Assembly (NCBI GenBank): GCA_018970085.1
Contig: JAGWXD010000021.1
Coordinates: 1-48,469 of the forward strand
Length of the DNA: 48,469 bases
Reading direction: 5' to 3'
Origin: Cyanobacteria bacterium REEB459
Lineage (GTDB): Bacteria; Cyanobacteriota; Cyanobacteriia; Phormidesmidales; Phormidesmidaceae
Below are positions 14,797 through 36,348 of the stretch, one piece after another (position 1 is the stretch's first letter; each line of letters begins with the position of its first letter). A program made the position numbers and the translations under genes. The notes beneath the pieces were generated by a model. That model was not told where the DNA came from. It saw only the letters and a program-made list of their open reading frames with translations, and made no database searches.

Positions 14797-16272
14797 ATGT
14801 ATATCGTCCAAGTTGCGTCAGAATGCGCTCCCGTAATCAAGGCTGGTGGCCTGGGCGATGTAGTTTATGGGCTGAGTAGCGAACTTGAAGGACAGGGCCA
14901 TTGCGTTGAAATTATTTTGCCCAAGTACGATTGTATGCGCTACGACCATATTTGGGGGCTCCACGATGCCTATCGCGACCTGGTAGTTCCTTGGTATGGC
15001 ACCGATATTCGCTGTGATGTGTTTTGTGGCTGGGTGCACGGGCGCTTGTGCTTTTTTATTGAGCCTAAGTCGTGGGAAATGTTCTTTAACCGGGGTTGCT
15101 ACTATGGCTGCTACGACGACCCCATGCGGTTTGCTTTTTTTAGTAAGGCCGCCCTGGAATTTCTGTTGCGCAGCAACAAACGTCCCGACGTGATTCACTG
15201 CCATGACTGGCAAACCGGCCTGATCCCGCCGATGTTGTTTGAAATTTATAAGTACAACGGCATGGAGTTTCAGCGTACTCTCTATACCATCCACAACTTT
15301 AAGCATCAAGGTATCGGGGCGAACGAAATTCTTGAGGCTACTGGCCTGAATCGGGATGACTACTATTTTCAGTACGACCGGCTGCGAGATAATTTCAACC
15401 CCTTTGCCATTAACTTTATGAAGGGCGGGATTACCTATGCCAATCACGTCAATACCGTCTCCCCTTACCACGCCTGGGAGGCCCAGCATACCGATCAGGG
15501 GTTTGGGTTGGGCCATACCCTCCACACCCATCAACATAAGTTTTCTGGCATCCTCAATGGGATTGACTATAGGGTTTGGAATCCGGAACTGGATCCCTAT
15601 ATTCCCCATCCCTACAGTCTCACCACCTTTGAAGATAAGGCCCTGAACAAGAAGGAACTGAGAGAGCGACTATTACTGCGCCAGTGCGATCGTCCTCTGG
15701 TGGCGTTTATTGGTCGACTGGATGACCAGAAGGGCGTCCATCTGGTACACCACGCCATTTATCACACCCTTGCCCGGGGTGGGCAGTTTGTTCTGCTCGG
15801 TTCAGCCACCGAAAAGGGTATCAACGACTGGTTCTGGCACGAAAAGTTACACCTCAACGACAACCCCGATGTTCATTTAGAAATTGGTTTTAATGAAGAA
15901 TTGGCCCACCTGATCTATGCTGGGGCCGATATGATTGTAGTGCCCAGCAATTTTGAACCCTGTGGGCTGACCCAGATGATCGGGCTTAAGTACGGCACGG
16001 TGCCCATTGTTCGGGGGGTTGGCGGTTTGGTGAACACCGTCTTTGACTGGGACTACGATAGTTTCCATGAACCCCAGGAACGCAATGGCTTCGTCTTCTT
16101 TCAAACCGACTATGGGGCGCTGGAATCGGCTATGAATCGGGCCTTTGATATCTGGCAACAGCACCCCCAAACCTTTCGGCAACTGGCCCTACAGGGAATG
16201 GCTTACGACTTCTCCTGGAACCATCCGGGGCAGGCCTATGTCGATCTCTATGAGTATATCCGCCATAAGTAG
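14797..16272 (+). CDS. glgA: Glycogen synthase (ADP-glucose, GT5)
   Basis: Elongates alpha-1,4-glucan chains from ADP-glucose, storing fixed carbon as glycogen. The ADP-glucose-binding motif KAGGLGDV starts at Lys15. HCHDWQTGL, FIGRLDDQKGVHLV and the C-terminal PSNFEPCGLTQMIGLKYG, which carries the catalytic Glu, are all intact, as is VRGVGGLVNTV. The 491-residue length and the N-terminal YDCMRYDHIWGLHDAYR stretch match one of the two GlgA isoforms commonly found in cyanobacteria. Which isoform it is should be settled by phylogeny. A strong ribosome binding site (AGGAAGG) precedes the ATG. Confidence 0.95.
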   Translation: MYIVQVASECAPVIKAGGLGDVVYGLSSELEGQGHCVEIILPKYDCMRYDHIWGLHDAYRDLVVPWYGTDIRCDVFCGWVHGRLCFFIEPKSWEMFFNRGCYYGCYDDPMRFAFFSKAALEFLLRSNKRPDVIHCHDWQTGLIPPMLFEIYKYNGMEFQRTLYTIHNFKHQGIGANEILEATGLNRDDYYFQYDRLRDNFNPFAINFMKGGITYANHVNTVSPYHAWEAQHTDQGFGLGHTLHTHQHKFSGILNGIDYRVWNPELDPYIPHPYSLTTFEDKALNKKELRERLLLRQCDRPLVAFIGRLDDQKGVHLVHHAIYHTLARGGQFVLLGSATEKGINDWFWHEKLHLNDNPDVHLEIGFNEELAHLIYAGADMIVVPSNFEPCGLTQMIGLKYGTVPIVRGVGGLVNTVFDWDYDSFHEPQERNGFVFFQTDYGALESAMNRAFDIWQQHPQTFRQLALQGMAYDFSWNHPGQAYVDLYEYIRHK

Positions 16273-16317
16273 TGAAATCCTGATTTTCTCTGCCTTGCCG
16301 ATATTCCGGCTGCTGAA

Positions 16318-17181
16318 ATGGGCAGTCTGAGGACAGAATTTACTCTCCCCATGATTCCTTCTTCTCCCTCTCCCCTGACCCGGGCCCAACTCCTGCAAGG
16401 TCAGGGTGATGCCCTCTATGCCCTGGGTCGCTATAGTGAAGCCCTGAGTCGCTTCCAGGCTGCCTTGGAACTGCAGCCCGACAGTTACGAACTCTGGACC
16501 CTCCATGGGTTTACCCTGACTGCGCTGAAGTGTTTTGAAGCCTCTTTAGAAAGCTATAATCAGGCTCTGACTCGTTGCCCCAATCACTCCCTGGCCTGGC
16601 ATGGTAAGGGGCATTCCCTGGCCAGATTGAGTCATTTTGAAGAAGCTGCCAGCCACCTACAGCAGGCTGTGCGGCTTAACCCCGCCGATACCAAGGCCTG
16701 GTATAACCTGGGGACGGCCCAAAACCATCTGGGTCGTTACCGAGAGGCGATCGCTAGTTTTGAGCAAAGCCTCAGCCTCAACCCCAGAGACCACCACTGC
16801 TACTATAACCAGGCAGTCGCCTTCCACGGTTTACAGGCCTACGAAAACGCCTTGCAGGTATTGCAGAGCGCCCTAAGACTTAAGCCCGATAGTCACTACA
16901 TCTGGAATCAACGGGGTACCACCCTACTGCAACTGGGGCGCTATGGTGAGGCGATCGCCAGTTTTGAGACATCCCTCCAATGCCAGGCCCACAACCCCAA
17001 TGCCTGGTATGGCAAAGCCCGGGTCTATGCCATGATGCATGACCTGGATAAAGCTCTAAAAAACCTCTATCGCACCTTTGTCATTAGTCCCTACATCTAT
17101 CGGGTGATGGTGCAGATAGACAACCACTTTGACTTGATTCGGGCCGAAACTGAATTTCAACGCCTGGTGGATAACGAGTAA
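16318..17181 (+). CDS. Tetratricopeptide repeat protein
   Basis: Almost the entire 287-residue protein is TPR helical repeats, about seven in number. Recurring signatures include ALYALGRYSEALSRFQAAL, AWYNLGTAQNHLGRYREAI and LLQLGRYGEAIASFETSL. TPRs bind other proteins, and no partner or catalytic domain is visible. There is no signal peptide, so it is probably cytoplasmic. It starts 46 bp after glgA on the same strand and may be cotranscribed. Met12 (16351) is an alternative start. It converges on the CHASE2-GGDEF-EAL gene. Confidence 0.85.
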   Translation: MGSLRTEFTLPMIPSSPSPLTRAQLLQGQGDALYALGRYSEALSRFQAALELQPDSYELWTLHGFTLTALKCFEASLESYNQALTRCPNHSLAWHGKGHSLARLSHFEEAASHLQQAVRLNPADTKAWYNLGTAQNHLGRYREAIASFEQSLSLNPRDHHCYYNQAVAFHGLQAYENALQVLQSALRLKPDSHYIWNQRGTTLLQLGRYGEAIASFETSLQCQAHNPNAWYGKARVYAMMHDLDKALKNLYRTFVISPYIYRVMVQIDNHFDLIRAETEFQRLVDNE

Positions 17182-26933: not shown

Positions 26934-27656
26934 TTGCTGCTATGGTTGAGCAAAGACGCCCTTGAGCAATGGGTAATGAGCACAGAGACGGGTCGGCGGG
27001 GAGCCTCTCAACTCTACAGTGACACGGTAATTGGGACGGTAGCGACCCTCAAGAGCGTGTTCCATCTGGCCGGGCGTCAAGCCCAGGGATTTATCGAATC
27101 GGTGTTTCAGTTAATGGACATCCCCTTACCCGTGCCCGACCACAGCACCGTATCGCGTCGATTGGCCGCCTTATCGGTCTCTATGCCGGTTCAACGGCGG
27201 AGCGGGGCGCGGCCTATTGTGGTGGATTCCACGGGGGTGAACGTGTACGGAGAGGGGGAATGGAAAGCTCGGCAACATGGGGTGACCAAACGGCGCACCT
27301 GGCGAAAGCTGTACCTCGGTGTCGATGAGGCCACTGCCTAGCGGGGAGCAGCCGCCACCCTTCCTCCTCGCCATGATGCTCGCCCCACTCAGCCCGCAGT
27401 GCCTAACCCGACCCACCCCAGGGACCAAATTTTGGAGCGCATTGAGCAAGTCGGCCGTGCAGCCTGGAAGCAAGAAAGCGGCTATCAACGCCGGTCTCTC
27501 GCTGAAACCACCCTATTTCGTCTCAAGGTCAGCTTTGGGGCGCGCGTTCGATCGAGGAACTTTGACAATCAGGCTGTTGAGCTCTTCTTGCAGTGTGCAG
27601 CGCTCAATCGCATGATTCAACTGGCCAAGCCTGACAGCTATCCGGTTGAAGCTTAA
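26934..27656 (+). pseudogene. IS5-family transposase, truncated and internally deleted
   Basis: Two blocks in the same reading frame belong to one IS5-type DDE transposase. The first (26934-27338) runs from LLWLSKDALEQWV through VPDHSTVSRRL, the first catalytic Asp in VVDSTGVNVYGEGEW, to LYLGVDEATA. Then comes TAG (27339-27341) and immediately the downstream part, RGAAATLPPRHD to GYQRRSLAETTLFRLK (catalytic Glu) and AKPDSYPVEA. The stretch with the second catalytic Asp is missing. The deletion kept the frame but the junction carries a stop codon. The N-terminus is also cut, since an in-frame TGA sits at 26928. It is inactive. Confidence 0.85.
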
Positions 27657-30806: not shown

Positions 30807-31388
30807 ATGATTCAGCTTAACCAACACCGGATGCCATCTCTAGGGCAGCCGCCCGTAGTGCCTGAGTTCTCTCCAGTTCAGCAGGTAGCCCTACTCAAGG
30901 GTGATATTCTGGTTGAGCCCGGGGTCAATGTCAAGGGTAGGGCAGCGGTAATCGCCCATATGTACGTGCCCCTCAGCCGGGCTCAAATCTGGCCTCAGGT
31001 AACCAGCTACCATCGCTGGCCCCAGTTTTTTCCCAATATCATTCACAGTGAGGTATTGGAAACGGTTAAGACCTCATCCCACCGCTATCGTCGTCTTTAC
31101 CAGGTGGGTCGTAAGGGGTTTATGGCCCTCAGTGCCCAGGTTGAGGTGTATCTAAAGGTGTTTGAGACTACCTGCGACCGGATTCAATTCCACCTTGAAA
31201 AAGGCACCTTTTCTCACTTTAGTGCCCACCTGGCCCTGCAAGACTTACACCAGGGTACCCTGCTCAGCTATTCCGTAGAAGCCGCCCCCACCCTACCCGT
31301 ACCCAGTTTTTTAATAGAACAGGCGATGAAATTGGATTTACCTGGCAATATGGGACAAATGCGCCAGGTACTCTGCCGGGAAGCCTAG
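30807..31388 (+). CDS. SRPBCC (START-like) family protein
   Basis: A 193-residue protein with the polyketide cyclase/START-like fold, seen in the segment VPLSRAQIWPQVTSYHRWPQ, which opens the helix-grip domain and its hydrophobic cavity, and later in QFHLEKGTFSHFSAH. The family binds small hydrophobic ligands such as quinones, lipids or pigments. No ligand or catalytic role is evident. The first 40 residues are polar and not part of the fold. No signal peptide is seen. It lies 180 bp ahead of kaiC on the same strand, with no sign of a shared function. Confidence 0.8.
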   Translation: MIQLNQHRMPSLGQPPVVPEFSPVQQVALLKGDILVEPGVNVKGRAAVIAHMYVPLSRAQIWPQVTSYHRWPQFFPNIIHSEVLETVKTSSHRYRRLYQVGRKGFMALSAQVEVYLKVFETTCDRIQFHLEKGTFSHFSAHLALQDLHQGTLLSYSVEAAPTLPVPSFLIEQAMKLDLPGNMGQMRQVLCREA

Positions 31389-31568
31389 CCTTTGCCCCCG
31401 GGTGGGTCACTGCTGGTTAGAATTAGCTGGGGCAGGCAGATGCAAACGGATTTAGCTTTGCTAGCCAATCTCAGCGATCGCTCCATCAGTTCAAGGTATG
31501 CTAAATGCTGAGTACCTGCTCGATTACGTTCAATGGCGCAGCCCTAGGCCCGATTTAACCCATAACCG
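31389..31568 (+). promoter_or_regulatory. Region upstream of kaiC
   Basis: About 180 bp between the START-like gene and kaiC must supply the kaiC promoter, because kaiB does not precede kaiC here. It contains a HIP1 octamer (near 31473) and AT-rich patches. No consensus -35/-10 pair or ribosome binding site is convincing. Confidence 0.4.
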
Positions 31569-33125
31569 ATGACTGATACTGCTTCCATCGATCGCCAATC
31601 CCCCGCCCAGCCCCTGGGTGTCCGCAAAATTCGCACCATGATTGAAGGGTTTGACGACATCAGTCATGGCGGCATTCCTGCTGGCCGTTCAACTCTGGTC
31701 AGCGGTACATCTGGCACCGGCAAAACTCTGTTTGCGGTGCAATTTATTTACAACGGTATTACCTACTTTGACGAGCCCGGGGTATTGGTTACCTTTGAGG
31801 AATCGCCCGAAGACATTATCCAGAACGCCTACAGCTTCGGCTGGGACCTGCAAAAACTGGTCAGCGAGAGCAAGTTATTTATTTTAGATGCCTCCCCCGA
31901 TCCTGAAGGTCAAGATGTGGTGGGCAATTTTGATCTATCGGCCCTGATTGAGCGAATTCAGTACGCTATTCGTAAGTACAAAGCTCGCCGGGTTTCCATC
32001 GACTCGGTTACCGCTGTTTTTCAGCAGTACGACGCCGCCTCTGTGGTGCGACGGGAAATCTTTCGGCTGGTGGCGCGGCTCAAGCAAATGGGGGTGACTA
32101 CGGTTATGACCACTGAGCGCCTGGATGAATACGGTCCGGTGGCCCGGTTTGGGGTAGAGGAATTTGTTTCTGACAACGTGGTCATCGTCCGTAACGCCCT
32201 GGAAGGAGAACGTCGCCGGCGCACCATTGAAATTCTTAAACTGCGAGGTACAACCCATATGAAAGGGGAGTATCCCTTCACCATTACCAACGAGGGTATT
32301 AATATCTTCCCCCTGGGGGCGATGCGGTTAACCCAGCGCTCCTCCAATGCTCGGGTTTCCTCCGGCGTTCCGACCCTGGACGAAATGTGTGGGGGCGGCT
32401 TCTTCAAGGATTCTATTATTCTGGCAACGGGGGCTACCGGTACCGGCAAAACCCTGTTGGTCAGTAAATTTTTGGTGGATGGCTGCAAAAGTGGAGAACG
32501 GGCGATTTTATTCGCCTACGAAGAGTCCCGGGCCCAGCTCTCCCGTAATGCCTACTCTTGGGGGATCGACTTTGAAGAGATGGAGCAGCAGGGGTTACTA
32601 AAAATTATCTGCGCCTATCCCGAGTCGGCTGGTCTAGAGGATCACCTGCAAATTATTAAGACCGAAATTTCTCAGTTCAAGCCCGCCCGCATGGCGATCG
32701 ACTCCCTATCGGCCCTGGATCGGGGGGTGAGTAATAACTCCTTCCGGCAATTTGTGATCGGGGTCACTGGGTTTGCCAAACAGGAGGAAATTACCGGATT
32801 TTTCACCAACACCACCGAGCAGTTTATGGGATTACACTCGATTACTGAGTCCCATATTTCCACCATTACAGATACGATCTTGATGCTGCAATACGTTGAG
32901 GTGCGAGGGGAAATGTCTCGCGCCATTAACGTATTTAAAATGCGGGGCTCCTGGCATGATAAGGGCATTCGGGAGTACACCATCAGCAGTCACGGCCCCG
33001 AAATTAAAGATTCCTTCCGCAATCTGGAGCGGATTATTAGCGGTTCTCCCACCCGTATTGCAGTAGACGAGAAGACCGAACTCTCCAGGATTGTCCAGGG
33101 GGTTCAGGGGGAGGATGACGACTAG
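31569..33125 (+). CDS. kaiC: Circadian clock ATPase/autokinase KaiC
   Basis: Core protein of the cyanobacterial clock: a double-domain RecA-like ATPase that forms hexamers and cycles through phosphorylation. Both P-loops are intact (GTSGTGKT in CI, GATGTGKT in CII). Both catalytic Glu pairs are present (TFEESPEDI and AYEESRAQL). The phosphorylation pair Ser431/Thr432 in SHISTITDT falls at the same positions as in Synechococcus elongatus. The C-terminal tail bound by KaiA is present (GSPTRIAVDEKTELSRIV). 518 residues. Unlike the canonical kaiABC order, kaiC here precedes kaiAB and is separated from them by a minus-strand gene ending 2 bp after it. Confidence 0.98.
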   Translation: MTDTASIDRQSPAQPLGVRKIRTMIEGFDDISHGGIPAGRSTLVSGTSGTGKTLFAVQFIYNGITYFDEPGVLVTFEESPEDIIQNAYSFGWDLQKLVSESKLFILDASPDPEGQDVVGNFDLSALIERIQYAIRKYKARRVSIDSVTAVFQQYDAASVVRREIFRLVARLKQMGVTTVMTTERLDEYGPVARFGVEEFVSDNVVIVRNALEGERRRRTIEILKLRGTTHMKGEYPFTITNEGINIFPLGAMRLTQRSSNARVSSGVPTLDEMCGGGFFKDSIILATGATGTGKTLLVSKFLVDGCKSGERAILFAYEESRAQLSRNAYSWGIDFEEMEQQGLLKIICAYPESAGLEDHLQIIKTEISQFKPARMAIDSLSALDRGVSNNSFRQFVIGVTGFAKQEEITGFFTNTTEQFMGLHSITESHISTITDTILMLQYVEVRGEMSRAINVFKMRGSWHDKGIREYTISSHGPEIKDSFRNLERIISGSPTRIAVDEKTELSRIVQGVQGEDDD

Positions 33126-33127
33126 TC

Positions 33128-35017
33128 TCATTGCCTGGGGCGCCAGGGAATACGCTGTAATAAGGTAGTGGCAATGGCTTCAGGGGACTGCCCCATCACC
33201 GCTGAAACATCCATCAGGCTCAGGGATGCAGGTGGCGGCTCTAAGGGGGGGCAGATGCAAACCAGCAAACTCTGGCTGAGCTCGGGCAACAGCAGTAGAC
33301 TCTGCCAGTCGGCGGCCACAAAGGCCTGGGTCAGTAGGATAGCGTCGGGCTGCCAGACTCGGCACAATAGGCTGGCCTGGGTTAAATCTTCGGCCCGCAG
33401 TAGCTGACAGTTATGGTACTGCAGTGCCTGTTGCCAGGGGTCGATCTGGGGTAGGGCATTCAGCAGTAGAAAGATTCGCTGCTGAGGCTGGGCCGGTGGG
33501 TAGCCCGGCTTCGTTAGGCTAAGCTCAACCAGGGTTGGAACCAGGCGCTGGTCTAGATCGGCCAGCGCCAGCAGAGTGGCCACCTCGGGCCCAGCCCCCA
33601 TGGGGGCTGGGCCAATCCAGATCAGGGCTGGGGTCGGTTTGGTTGGGTCGGTGCCATGGTTGGCCATGAGCTGGTCGGGGGGGGGCAGCGATTCGCCATG
33701 GTAGAGAATCGCTGCAGCAGATAATCGCTGTAGGTTTGACAGTTGGGTGGGCTCACCGCCCACCACCACCAGTCGATAGCAACTGGATTGCAGCAGGCTA
33801 TACACCTGATCGATAACGGCCTGGCTGTGACTAATTAACCCAATCAAAACCGTGGCTGGGGGACGAACCGGGGTAGGGGTGGCAGGCAGCAGTAGGGTAA
33901 GCCGATAACCATAGCGCGGAGAGCAAAAGCCCACCAGGTCTCCCCCCTGTCGCTGACAAAGCCGCCGGGCCAGGGCCAGGGGTAAACTGTCCAGGGGCTC
34001 CATGGGGGGTATAGCGCTCCTGGCCAAGTCAGGGCCATCACCGCCCGGATAACTGCCGCTGAGGGTCAGACCCAGCCAACAGCCCCAGGGCTCTATAGTC
34101 AGGGCTTGGGGTTGGGACTGTGCCTGGAGCAGATAGTCTAGGACGCCGTAGAGGCTTTGCTGTAAACAGCGGCGATCGGCCTGCAAGGGCGGCAGGTTTG
34201 TATTCAAGTCGCAGCTAAACTCGGCTATCCAGGCAGGGGTAGGGCCCTGGTCGTCTAGCCAGGTGCTATGGAATTGGCTAAGCAGGGTCTCGGCCAGGGT
34301 AGATGTATCGACCCTGGCCAGGGTCAGGGCAAATTGGTCAGACTCCAGATCGATCCAATCTACCCATTGATTGATCAGACGAATCAGTTGGCGAATAGCC
34401 CGTCGCATTAGATGGACGTAGCGGCTCTGGCGATCGCCCAAACTCCCAATTCGGGGATCAAGCAGCAGGGTGGATAATCCTAGTAGGGATGTCAGGGGTG
34501 TTTTAACACTATGGTTGAGCACCATTAGCCAGGTGTGGGCCTGGGCTGGCACTGGCACCCTGGAGCCCAGGGCCGATGAAGAGCCCATCGCCGGCATCGC
34601 CGCTGTTACCCAGAGCAGCAGTTCGGCCGCCTGAATCGCCCCCTGATAGCAGCCAGCCCCATCGACTAGTACCCAGGGGCCCTGGGGGTTGGCTTGCAGA
34701 TAGTCCCACAGGTCCGTCAGATTAGATGACGCCGGAATCATCACCACCGGCTGCAGCCAGGGCTGACAGGCCAGCAGTTGGGGACCCTGGGGGGGCGACT
34801 GGGGCAGCGAGTTTAGGTGACATTGGTGGTAAAAAGCCCACAGGGGCGCCAGGGCGATCGCGCCTAGGGGGGCATTGTACTGATCGACTACAACGAGGTA
34901 CTCACCCCCAGGGTAAGGGGCTTGGGCCAGCTGCCGGGCTACCGTAGCCAGATCGGCGGTGAGGGGAAAACTGGGGGGGTAGCTCAATAATTCTGGTGGC
35001 AGCATTCTGACGGTCAA
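33128..35017 (-). CDS. Degenerate histidine-kinase-like protein with CBS-like and receiver-like segments, embedded in the kai locus
   Basis: 629 residues. The N-terminus (about 10-140) looks like a CBS pair (FPLTADLATVARQL; EYLVVVDQYNAPLGAIAL). A HisKA-type helix follows, with His169 in LNHSVKTPLTSLLGL. The ATPase domain (about 270-378) is recognisable only by its ends (ADRRCLQQSLYGVLDYLL; LARRLCQRQGGDLVGF): the N-box Asn is replaced by Tyr295 and the DxGxG box is missing. Kinase activity is therefore doubtful. Two later segments (about 388-500 and 512-620) look like receivers without phosphorylatable Asp. CikA likewise ends in a pseudo-receiver that binds KaiB. Convergent with kaiC, divergent from kaiA. 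Confidence 0.75.
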   Translation of the reverse strand: MTVRMLPPELLSYPPSFPLTADLATVARQLAQAPYPGGEYLVVVDQYNAPLGAIALAPLWAFYHQCHLNSLPQSPPQGPQLLACQPWLQPVVMIPASSNLTDLWDYLQANPQGPWVLVDGAGCYQGAIQAAELLLWVTAAMPAMGSSSALGSRVPVPAQAHTWLMVLNHSVKTPLTSLLGLSTLLLDPRIGSLGDRQSRYVHLMRRAIRQLIRLINQWVDWIDLESDQFALTLARVDTSTLAETLLSQFHSTWLDDQGPTPAWIAEFSCDLNTNLPPLQADRRCLQQSLYGVLDYLLQAQSQPQALTIEPWGCWLGLTLSGSYPGGDGPDLARSAIPPMEPLDSLPLALARRLCQRQGGDLVGFCSPRYGYRLTLLLPATPTPVRPPATVLIGLISHSQAVIDQVYSLLQSSCYRLVVVGGEPTQLSNLQRLSAAAILYHGESLPPPDQLMANHGTDPTKPTPALIWIGPAPMGAGPEVATLLALADLDQRLVPTLVELSLTKPGYPPAQPQQRIFLLLNALPQIDPWQQALQYHNCQLLRAEDLTQASLLCRVWQPDAILLTQAFVAADWQSLLLLPELSQSLLVCICPPLEPPPASLSLMDVSAVMGQSPEAIATTLLQRIPWRPRQ

Positions 35018-35107
35018 CCCTTACAATTAATAAATGTGAATATATATCTAGTTAGCATTAGAGTTGTTGTCTCTAGTTTCTAGTTACGGGCTACCTGTTC
35101 CTGCCGT
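35018..35107. promoter_or_regulatory. Divergent promoter region of kaiA and the kinase-like gene
   Basis: Only about 90 bp separate the two start codons. The stretch 35026-35060 is AT-rich (TAATAAATGTGAATATATAT) and is the likely site of back-to-back promoters. No purine-rich ribosome binding site precedes kaiA. Confidence 0.5.
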
Positions 35108-35992
35108 TTGCGCCTGACTCCTACCTTGGTGACACCCCTACAGATATACTTGCTGGCTCAGTCGGAGGACATTATCACCCCCTGCCAGGGGGTTCTACCT
35201 CCAGAACGATACCTCCTGCACAGGGCAACCACCGTCGGGGATGGGTTACTGTGGTTGAGCGATCGCCGCCACCAGGTAGATTGTTTAATTCTGGAAGCTG
35301 CCATGGTAACTGAAAATCTTCAGAACCGGTTAACCGCCAATGGCGTCCTGGTTCCGGTGGTGTTGGTTACCGCCCACCCCAAAAAAGAGTTAAACCCAGA
35401 GAACCCTCCTCACCCCACCCTAGAAAATCTCAAGAATACCTACCACAGGGCCGTGGTGACGCTACCGGCCCACCAGCTTAGCCAGATAGAAGCGGCTATT
35501 CAACAGGCCATTGAAGAATTCCTGGGGCTATCGGCTGAAGCCTGTTTGTTGCCCACAGACCAGCTACCCATGCCTGACCTGCTCAAGACCCAACAGAACC
35601 GATTAACCGAAAAGCTAAAAGCTCGCCTCGGTTACCTGGGGGTTTATTACAAGCGCAATCCCGATCACTTTTTACGCCATATGAGTCAGTCTGACCGGGA
35701 AACCCTTTTGTGCCAGCTTAAGGCCGACTATCGAAAAATTATCTTAGGCTACTTCTCTAACGATGCCAAACTCAATCAAAATATTGATAGCTTTGTAAAC
35801 CAAGCTTTCATGGCGGATATTTCCGTCTCCCACATTGTCGAAATCCACATGGAACTCATGGATGAGTTTTCGAAGCAGCTTAAGCTGGAGAACCGCAGCG
35901 AAGAAATTTTGCTGGATTACCGGTTAACCCTGATTGATGTGATTGCTCACCTGTGTGAGATGTATCGGCGATCGATTCCCAGAGAATCTTAA
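35108..35992 (+). CDS. kaiA: Circadian clock protein KaiA
   Basis: Stimulates KaiC autophosphorylation. The N-terminal half is a pseudo-receiver (about 10-140). The C-terminal four-helix domain, which binds the KaiC tail and KaiB, is very well kept: [35 protein letters not shown] and [20 protein letters not shown]. The start is uncertain. TTG at 35108 gives 294 residues, while alignment to the 284-residue S. elongatus protein favours TTG at 35126 or GTG at 35129. None has a clear ribosome binding site. kaiB follows by 47 bp and they should be cotranscribed. Confidence 0.97.
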
Positions 35993-36039
35993 GGCTACAA
36001 TCAACCCTGTGTACCTTTTTACTCCAGAGCATCTTTCCT

Positions 36040-36348
36040 ATGAGTGCGGTTAAGAAGACTTATATTCTCAAACTTTACGTAGCTGGCAATACCCCCAATT
36101 CCATCCGTGCCCTCAAAACCTTAAATAATATTCTAGAGGAGGAATTCCAGGGGGTTTACGCTCTCAAGGTAATCGACGTGCTAAAGAATCCCCAACTGGC
36201 CGAAGAAGATAAGATTCTGGCTACGCCAACCCTCTCTAAAATCTTGCCGCCACCTGTGCGTAAAATCATTGGAGATCTGTCCGATCGCGAGCGGGTATTA
36301 ATCGGGTTAGACCTGCTTTACGACGAATTGCGGGAAGACGATTCCTAG
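36040..36348 (+). CDS. kaiB: Circadian clock protein KaiB
   Basis: Thioredoxin-like fold-switching protein that binds KaiC late in the cycle, sequesters KaiA and displaces SasA. It is 102 residues, the same as in S. elongatus, and almost superimposable: [40 protein letters not shown] and [20 protein letters not shown], with the acidic tail. It lies 47 bp after kaiA. It is the last gene of the kai group here, whereas canonical clusters continue into kaiC. It converges on the Crp-family gene with 31 bp between stops. Confidence 0.98.

Follow-up and report, generated by a model that had tools for sequence, protein, structure and literature searches.

The 48,469-nucleotide stretch of DNA analysed here (contig JAGWXD010000021.1 of Cyanobacteria bacterium REEB459, henceforth referred to as the window, whose coordinates are those of contig C5 of the genome) carries the kai genes of the circadian clock with kaiC ahead of kaiA and kaiB. 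We consider it probable that this cyanobacterium, a member of the Nodosilinea group, has here its only kaiABC locus, still intact, that kaiC has changed place together with a putative promoter of its own, and that the clock presumably works. The order is kaiC(+), a HisKA-domain gene (HK) (-), kaiA(+), kaiB(+), as given by the open reading frames of the window; the Pfam matches of the encoded proteins follow in the same order: KaiC (in two stretches), HisKA, the N- and C-terminal domains of KaiA, and KaiB. The first-pass annotation of this DNA had read the same order at the same positions, and both lines of evidence bear it out. The intact kaiC frame (31569-33125, plus strand, 518 aa), displaced from a position 3' of kaiB, ends 2 bp (33126-33127) from the convergent stop codon of HK (33128-35017, minus strand, 629 aa), the ancestral divergent neighbour of kaiA; kaiA follows (35108-35992, plus strand, 294 aa, with a TTG start whose position is provisional), and kaiB (36040-36348, plus strand, 102 aa) lies 47 bp after kaiA and has no kaiC 3' of it. 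The locus is not a canonical kaiABC cluster, in which kaiA, kaiB and kaiC share one strand and kaiC stands behind kaiB. Since kaiC lies 5' of kaiB and both kaiA and a gene on the opposite strand intervene, a shared kaiBC transcript is impossible here by geometry alone. The window scan lists no terminator-like site in the 2-bp gap between kaiC and HK and, with their stops so close, the two transcripts may overlap at their 3' ends.

The three proteins have the make-up of a KaiABC clock of the KaiC1 type: a double-domain KaiC, a full-length KaiA and a clock-like KaiB. KaiC exceeds the cut-off of the NCBIfam family circ_KaiC (1031 bits against 546) and KaiB that of circ_KaiB (186 against 145), and KaiA has no match among the NCBIfam families. 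KaiC contains two Walker A motifs (46-53 and 288-295) and retains E77/E78, K294, E318/E319, T426, S431 and T432; the numbering of Synechococcus elongatus KaiC applies directly, residues 13-514 of structure 1u9i aligning to residues 13-514. The Glu pairs 77/78 and 318/319 are the catalytic ones. S431 and T432 are described in a published account as key phosphorylation sites (PMC2885980). KaiA, including its C-terminal KaiC-binding domain, aligns nearly end to end with a solved clock protein, and KaiB aligns over almost its full length and is close to solved clock KaiB proteins. The first-pass annotation had claimed that Ser431/Thr432 and both Walker A motifs are kept, that KaiA and KaiB are full length and that gene order and not function was lost; the residues and lengths agree with what we find, and no loss of function is visible.

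A search of the whole genome assembly (3.24 Mb in 102 contigs, 99.84% complete, 3.16% contamination) returned one KaiC, one KaiA and one stand-alone KaiB, as well as a SasA-like kinase with a KaiB domain (SasA). No second kaiA, kaiC or canonical kai operon, which the first-pass annotation had named as a possible refutation, was found in these 3.24 Mb. A further KaiB domain forms the C-terminal part of a 258-aa protein (L034 1471-2247, genome contig C97), whose gene adjoins one for an ATPase that we take, from its sequence, to be PilT-like.

Gene order across the cyanobacteria

The comparison of kai order across cyanobacteria that the first-pass annotation had suggested was made in a phylum sample of 292 genomes, with cut-offs of E<=1e-150 for KaiC (138 genomes) and E<=1e-33 for KaiB (136 genomes). 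It leaves the window genome as the sole exception: in 135 of the 136 genomes with both genes, kaiC lies directly 3' of kaiB on the same strand, at a distance of 21-648 bp. This count used the best KaiC place of each of the 138 genomes and one of the two KaiB copies of genome G282, with weaker second KaiC copies unused; G147 and G159 have KaiC and no KaiB at E<=1e-33. The kaiBC pair is intact even in the 18 genomes with KaiC and KaiB that lack a KaiA match. Similarly, kaiC stands behind kaiA on the same strand, 0.2-1.6 kb away, in 116 of 120 genomes with KaiA, the four exceptions being the window genome, G170 (338 kb apart), and G262 and G282 (different contigs). Here one KaiA place per genome and 121 of the 138 KaiC rows were used: 17 genomes without a KaiA match were left out, G255 was kept, and for G033 the place on C21 next to kaiC was taken in preference to a better-scoring place of 36% identity on C6.

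At the level of the taxonomic order, 59 of 63 genomes hold both kaiA and kaiC, and 55 of these 59 are canonical, with the genes 476-939 bp apart on one strand; the other four are the window genome, G170, G294 and G349 (contig ends). Within the genus, kaiA is followed by kaiC in 24 of the 25 genomes with both. The second KaiA segments of G325, G337, G339 and G346 and the second KaiC of G303 were left out of these two counts. Among named loci (the best 80 of 235), 78 read kaiA-kaiB-kaiC, and the remaining two are L147, which is cut by a contig end, and L156 of Tychonema bourrellyi, where no kaiC was found. A search of the open-access literature found no report of a displaced kaiC or of an internal kaiC promoter. 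The arrangement in the window is rare.

Compared with the cluster of S. elongatus PCC 7942 (kaiA and a kaiBC operon), the window has the same three proteins with conserved residues and kaiA and kaiB adjacent and co-directional, but its kaiC lies upstream of a convergent HisKA gene and not behind kaiB, and kaiBC is not dicistronic. In the same family, G170 and G294 also have a broken kaiABC linkage; there it is kaiA that has departed and kaiBC that stay paired, whereas in the window kaiC has departed and kaiAB stay paired. In these two genomes, of genus g2 in that family, kaiA is 338 kb from kaiBC in G170 (C1:361802-363848 and C1:701779-702618) and on another contig in G294 (C370 and C159), and in both it still adjoins a divergent homologue of the HisKA gene. 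Other odd loci were seen. In Tychonema bourrellyi FEM_GT703 (L156 9950-12750) an IS605-type TnpB gene lies between kaiA and kaiB, and a search at E<=1e-50 found no KaiC behind kaiB or anywhere else in the assembly (5.1 Mb), which may be a real loss or an assembly gap. On contig C179 of G282 kaiB occurs twice, in opposite orientations (312-608 and 1370-1666), perhaps an assembly duplication. In G159 (C3:11867-14447) a kaiA with in-frame stops directly precedes kaiC, a possible decaying clock locus.

The displaced gene and the element upstream of it

The first-pass annotation had described kaiC as separated from kaiAB by an antisense gene. Read as an intrusion, this does not hold, and HK can be ruled out as an intruder between kaiC and kaiA, for it is the ordinary divergent neighbour of kaiA in relatives: the two genes lie divergently side by side in 24 of 24 genus genomes in which both were found, the window genome included (read by eye), and 68 of the 80 named loci compared (the best of 235) have a minus-strand homologue 5' of kaiA, several of the remaining 12 having little contig upstream of that gene. 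The position of HK beside kaiA in relatives therefore makes HK(-)-kaiA-kaiB-kaiC the ancestral block and kaiC the displaced gene. The same four genes, in the same orientations, are found in G328 (Leptolyngbyaceae cyanobacterium M65_K2018_010) and G317 (Nodosilinea sp. P-1105; both identified by shared sequence), but there they run HK-kaiA-kaiB-kaiC, whereas the window runs kaiC-HK-kaiA-kaiB, a circular permutation with all orientations kept. In a tree of KaiC and KaiA from 27 genomes, the window genome groups with G328, G320, G325, G329 and G330 (support 58); all five have the canonical kai order, which argues that the order in the window is derived.

HK itself retains the phospho-acceptor His169, invariant in seven aligned proteins, within its HisKA domain, so that one of the two marks of an active histidine kinase is present; the other, a HATPase_c domain, was not found in the window protein at E 0.001, nor at E 0.01 in any of the five orthologues scanned from genus relatives. 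Five of six more distant relatives of HK that also adjoin kaiA carry HisKA, HATPase_c and a receiver domain. HK has the appearance of a one-time hybrid kinase that became a pseudokinase next to the clock genes, and it and its orthologues are candidate clock-associated proteins.

Upstream of kaiC the window holds a conserved element (31491-31510, plus strand) that ends 58 bases before the start codon and is specific to the genus; its core, GGTATGCT, begins at 31495. In the relatives, the spacer from kaiB to kaiC contains a footprint around this core, in most cases some 75 bases ahead of kaiC, and G328 and G317 share the element. The hexamer TATGCT occurs in the kaiB-kaiC spacer of every one of the 24 genus relatives that yielded a kaiC. 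Of 113 distinct spacers in all, 31 contain it; 200 shuffles gave 5.6 on average and never more than 12 (the spacer set excluded the window genome's loci, duplicate spacers, spacers of <20 or >1200 bp, and loci where the match to KaiC was weak or began away from the N-terminus). At the element the window and G328 have 24 identical bases in common, and alignment of the window with its relatives reveals no evident similarity before it and weak similarity after it. Within the window this is the only match to the element at <=3 mismatches, where 0.84 would be expected by chance. A pattern search of 26 genus genomes at <=1 mismatch found a match upstream of kaiC in 22, the window genome included; three others carry a deviating copy there, and in the remaining genome (G318, 83% complete) no kaiC was found. 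Of the 25 matches in all, just 3 lie away from kaiC (in G317, G318 and G335), not above the 8 matches that a reversed control pattern gave.

The element is close to kaiC-specific and travelled with the gene: as the shared bases show, kaiC took along the sequence immediately 5' of it, if not more, and with that sequence the element from the kaiB-kaiC spacer. Most likely it is kaiC's own promoter or a regulator site, with TATGCT as a putative -10 box, and it makes it probable that kaiC, as the first-pass annotation had stated, has a promoter of its own, uncoupled from kaiB. Its use as a wider regulon motif is unsupported, as it is nearly confined to kaiC in the 26 genus genomes, and there was no sign of RNA structure at the element (z 0.51).

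Origin of the order, alternatives and consequences for the clock

On its upstream side kaiC is flanked, 180 bp away, by a polyketide-cyclase-like gene (30807-31388, plus strand); on the downstream side, the stop codon of kaiB is 31 bp from that of a gene that we take from its sequence to be CRP-like. The CRP-like protein had no family match in profile scans. For both flanking genes, the best relatives among the 12 searched are of the same genus. The two genes are far apart or on different contigs in all 11 relatives with both, which leaves the idea that the whole block was simply inserted between them unsupported. At either flank gene the window genome shares only the central gene with each of nine relatives. 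For some pairs of relatives the number shared there is as high as 11 genes (the central one counted); for others, such as all pairs with G328 at the CRP-like gene, it is one. Gene order is quickly lost in this group, and the kai block is the only one of three tested places where it is conserved with the window genome. The remnant of a DDE transposase, degraded and frame-broken, lies at 26934-27656, 4 kb ahead of kaiC. Genes for a starch/glycogen-synthase-like and a TPR protein lie 14 kb upstream of kaiC (14797-17181), and their homologues lie shortly 3' of kaiC in G328 and G333, perhaps a trace of the old kai neighbourhood.

The likeliest route to the present order would be that the block was first duplicated in tandem and then thinned by reciprocal loss, which we prefer because a complete kaiABC set would be present at every step; excision with re-integration, or transposition of kaiC alone, would give the same order, and none of the three routes has left a remnant that speaks for it. 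An 18-nt repeat (31430/33245) upstream of kaiC, considered as a duplication remnant, was not significant. Several points weigh against our interpretation. The main doubt is that the order rests on one draft assembly, with no second strain of the same order. Both flanks are new relative to the relatives, so that the history of the site is lost, and the nearest-relative grouping, with its support of 58, is poorly supported. No duplication remnant was found: of 264 control segments, 5.7% did as well as or better than the best local match between the spacer upstream of kaiC and the HK-kaiA-kaiB region. As to the promoter, a sigma-70 consensus scan lists no site at the element, and the spacers that served to build the pattern are also those that then matched it; its rarity elsewhere was not built in.

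A mis-joined contig whose true order is HK-kaiA-kaiB-kaiC would be consistent with a draft in 102 contigs, its contamination estimated at 3.16%, and with an order unique among the sampled genomes, as a one-off artefact would be. We nevertheless judge it unlikely: it requires three clean joins, each falling exactly between genes, and the genes at the joins are all complete, with stops only 2 bp (kaiC/HK) and 31 bp (kaiB/CRP-like) apart. The only repeat near two of the joins is of 18 nt at 89% and is not significant (among the 20 of 56 direct families and 25 of 42 inverted pairs listed), and the best relatives of KaiC, KaiA and HK are of the same genus, as are those of both flank genes among the 12 relatives searched. 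There is a similarly small chance that the polyketide-cyclase-like gene, on the same strand as kaiC and 180 bp from it, serves kaiC by read-through in a new operon in which the element is a relic; a relic should not have kept its 24 bases identical to G328 while the sequence before it lost evident similarity. Least probable is that the locus is decaying in a shrinking genome, the displacement of kaiC being a step of loss as in kaiA-less lineages. The genome is small (3.24 Mb, compared with 3.4-7.3 Mb in the genus, incomplete assemblies counted), gene order is not conserved around the two tested neighbours, and the Tychonema bourrellyi assembly without a KaiC match exists elsewhere; yet the three proteins are intact with their catalytic and phosphorylation residues, KaiC is 91-96% identical to its genus relatives and KaiB 96-100% across the 11 genus genomes compared, and SasA is present. 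On the evidence at hand the relocated locus appears real, rare, derived and probably functional.

For a relocated kaiC we envisage that the gene could be expressed from the element without kaiB both before and after the move, and a putative promoter predating the move would explain why the split was tolerated. In the window, kaiAB would be expressed from the kaiA/HK intergenic region and kaiC from its own site, giving what may be a working clock with two control sites, and the KaiABC oscillator would run post-translationally as usual, as the intact proteins and published promoter replacements suggest. Published work describes kaiB and kaiC as normally forming a dicistronic mRNA, and reports that in S. 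elongatus the kaiBC promoters were replaced by heterologous ones with the circadian rhythm undisturbed (PMC2885980). If the promoters are replaceable in this way, loss of the shared transcript need not stop the clock. The first-pass annotation had concluded that the feedback known from S. elongatus cannot work here through a shared kaiBC transcript; it was right that such a transcript is impossible, but overstated the consequence, as promoter feedback acts in trans and the replacements (PMC2885980) left the rhythm undisturbed. Further work describes kaiB1 and kaiC1 expression phases that differ in Prochlorococcus MED4 and run in anti-phase in Cyanothece 51142, a pattern behind which its authors suspect post-transcriptional regulation (PMC5520375), and kai expression that is of low amplitude or arrhythmic in Anabaena (PMC10805033).

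More tentatively, and with somewhat less than even confidence, we suggest that kaiC in this genus has long had a dedicated promoter with a kaiC-specific element, and that in the window genome kaiB and kaiC are now fully independent, the KaiC:KaiB:KaiA ratios being set by two control sites and possibly also by antisense overlap at the 3' end of kaiC, where it converges on HK. If true, this independent transcription of kaiB and kaiC would be a natural experiment in clock wiring: a lineage in which kaiBC is broken and all three proteins are kept tests whether it makes a difference to the clock that kaiB and kaiC are transcribed together, and the genus-wide element upstream of kaiC is a testable candidate for an internal kaiC promoter hidden in a seemingly canonical operon.

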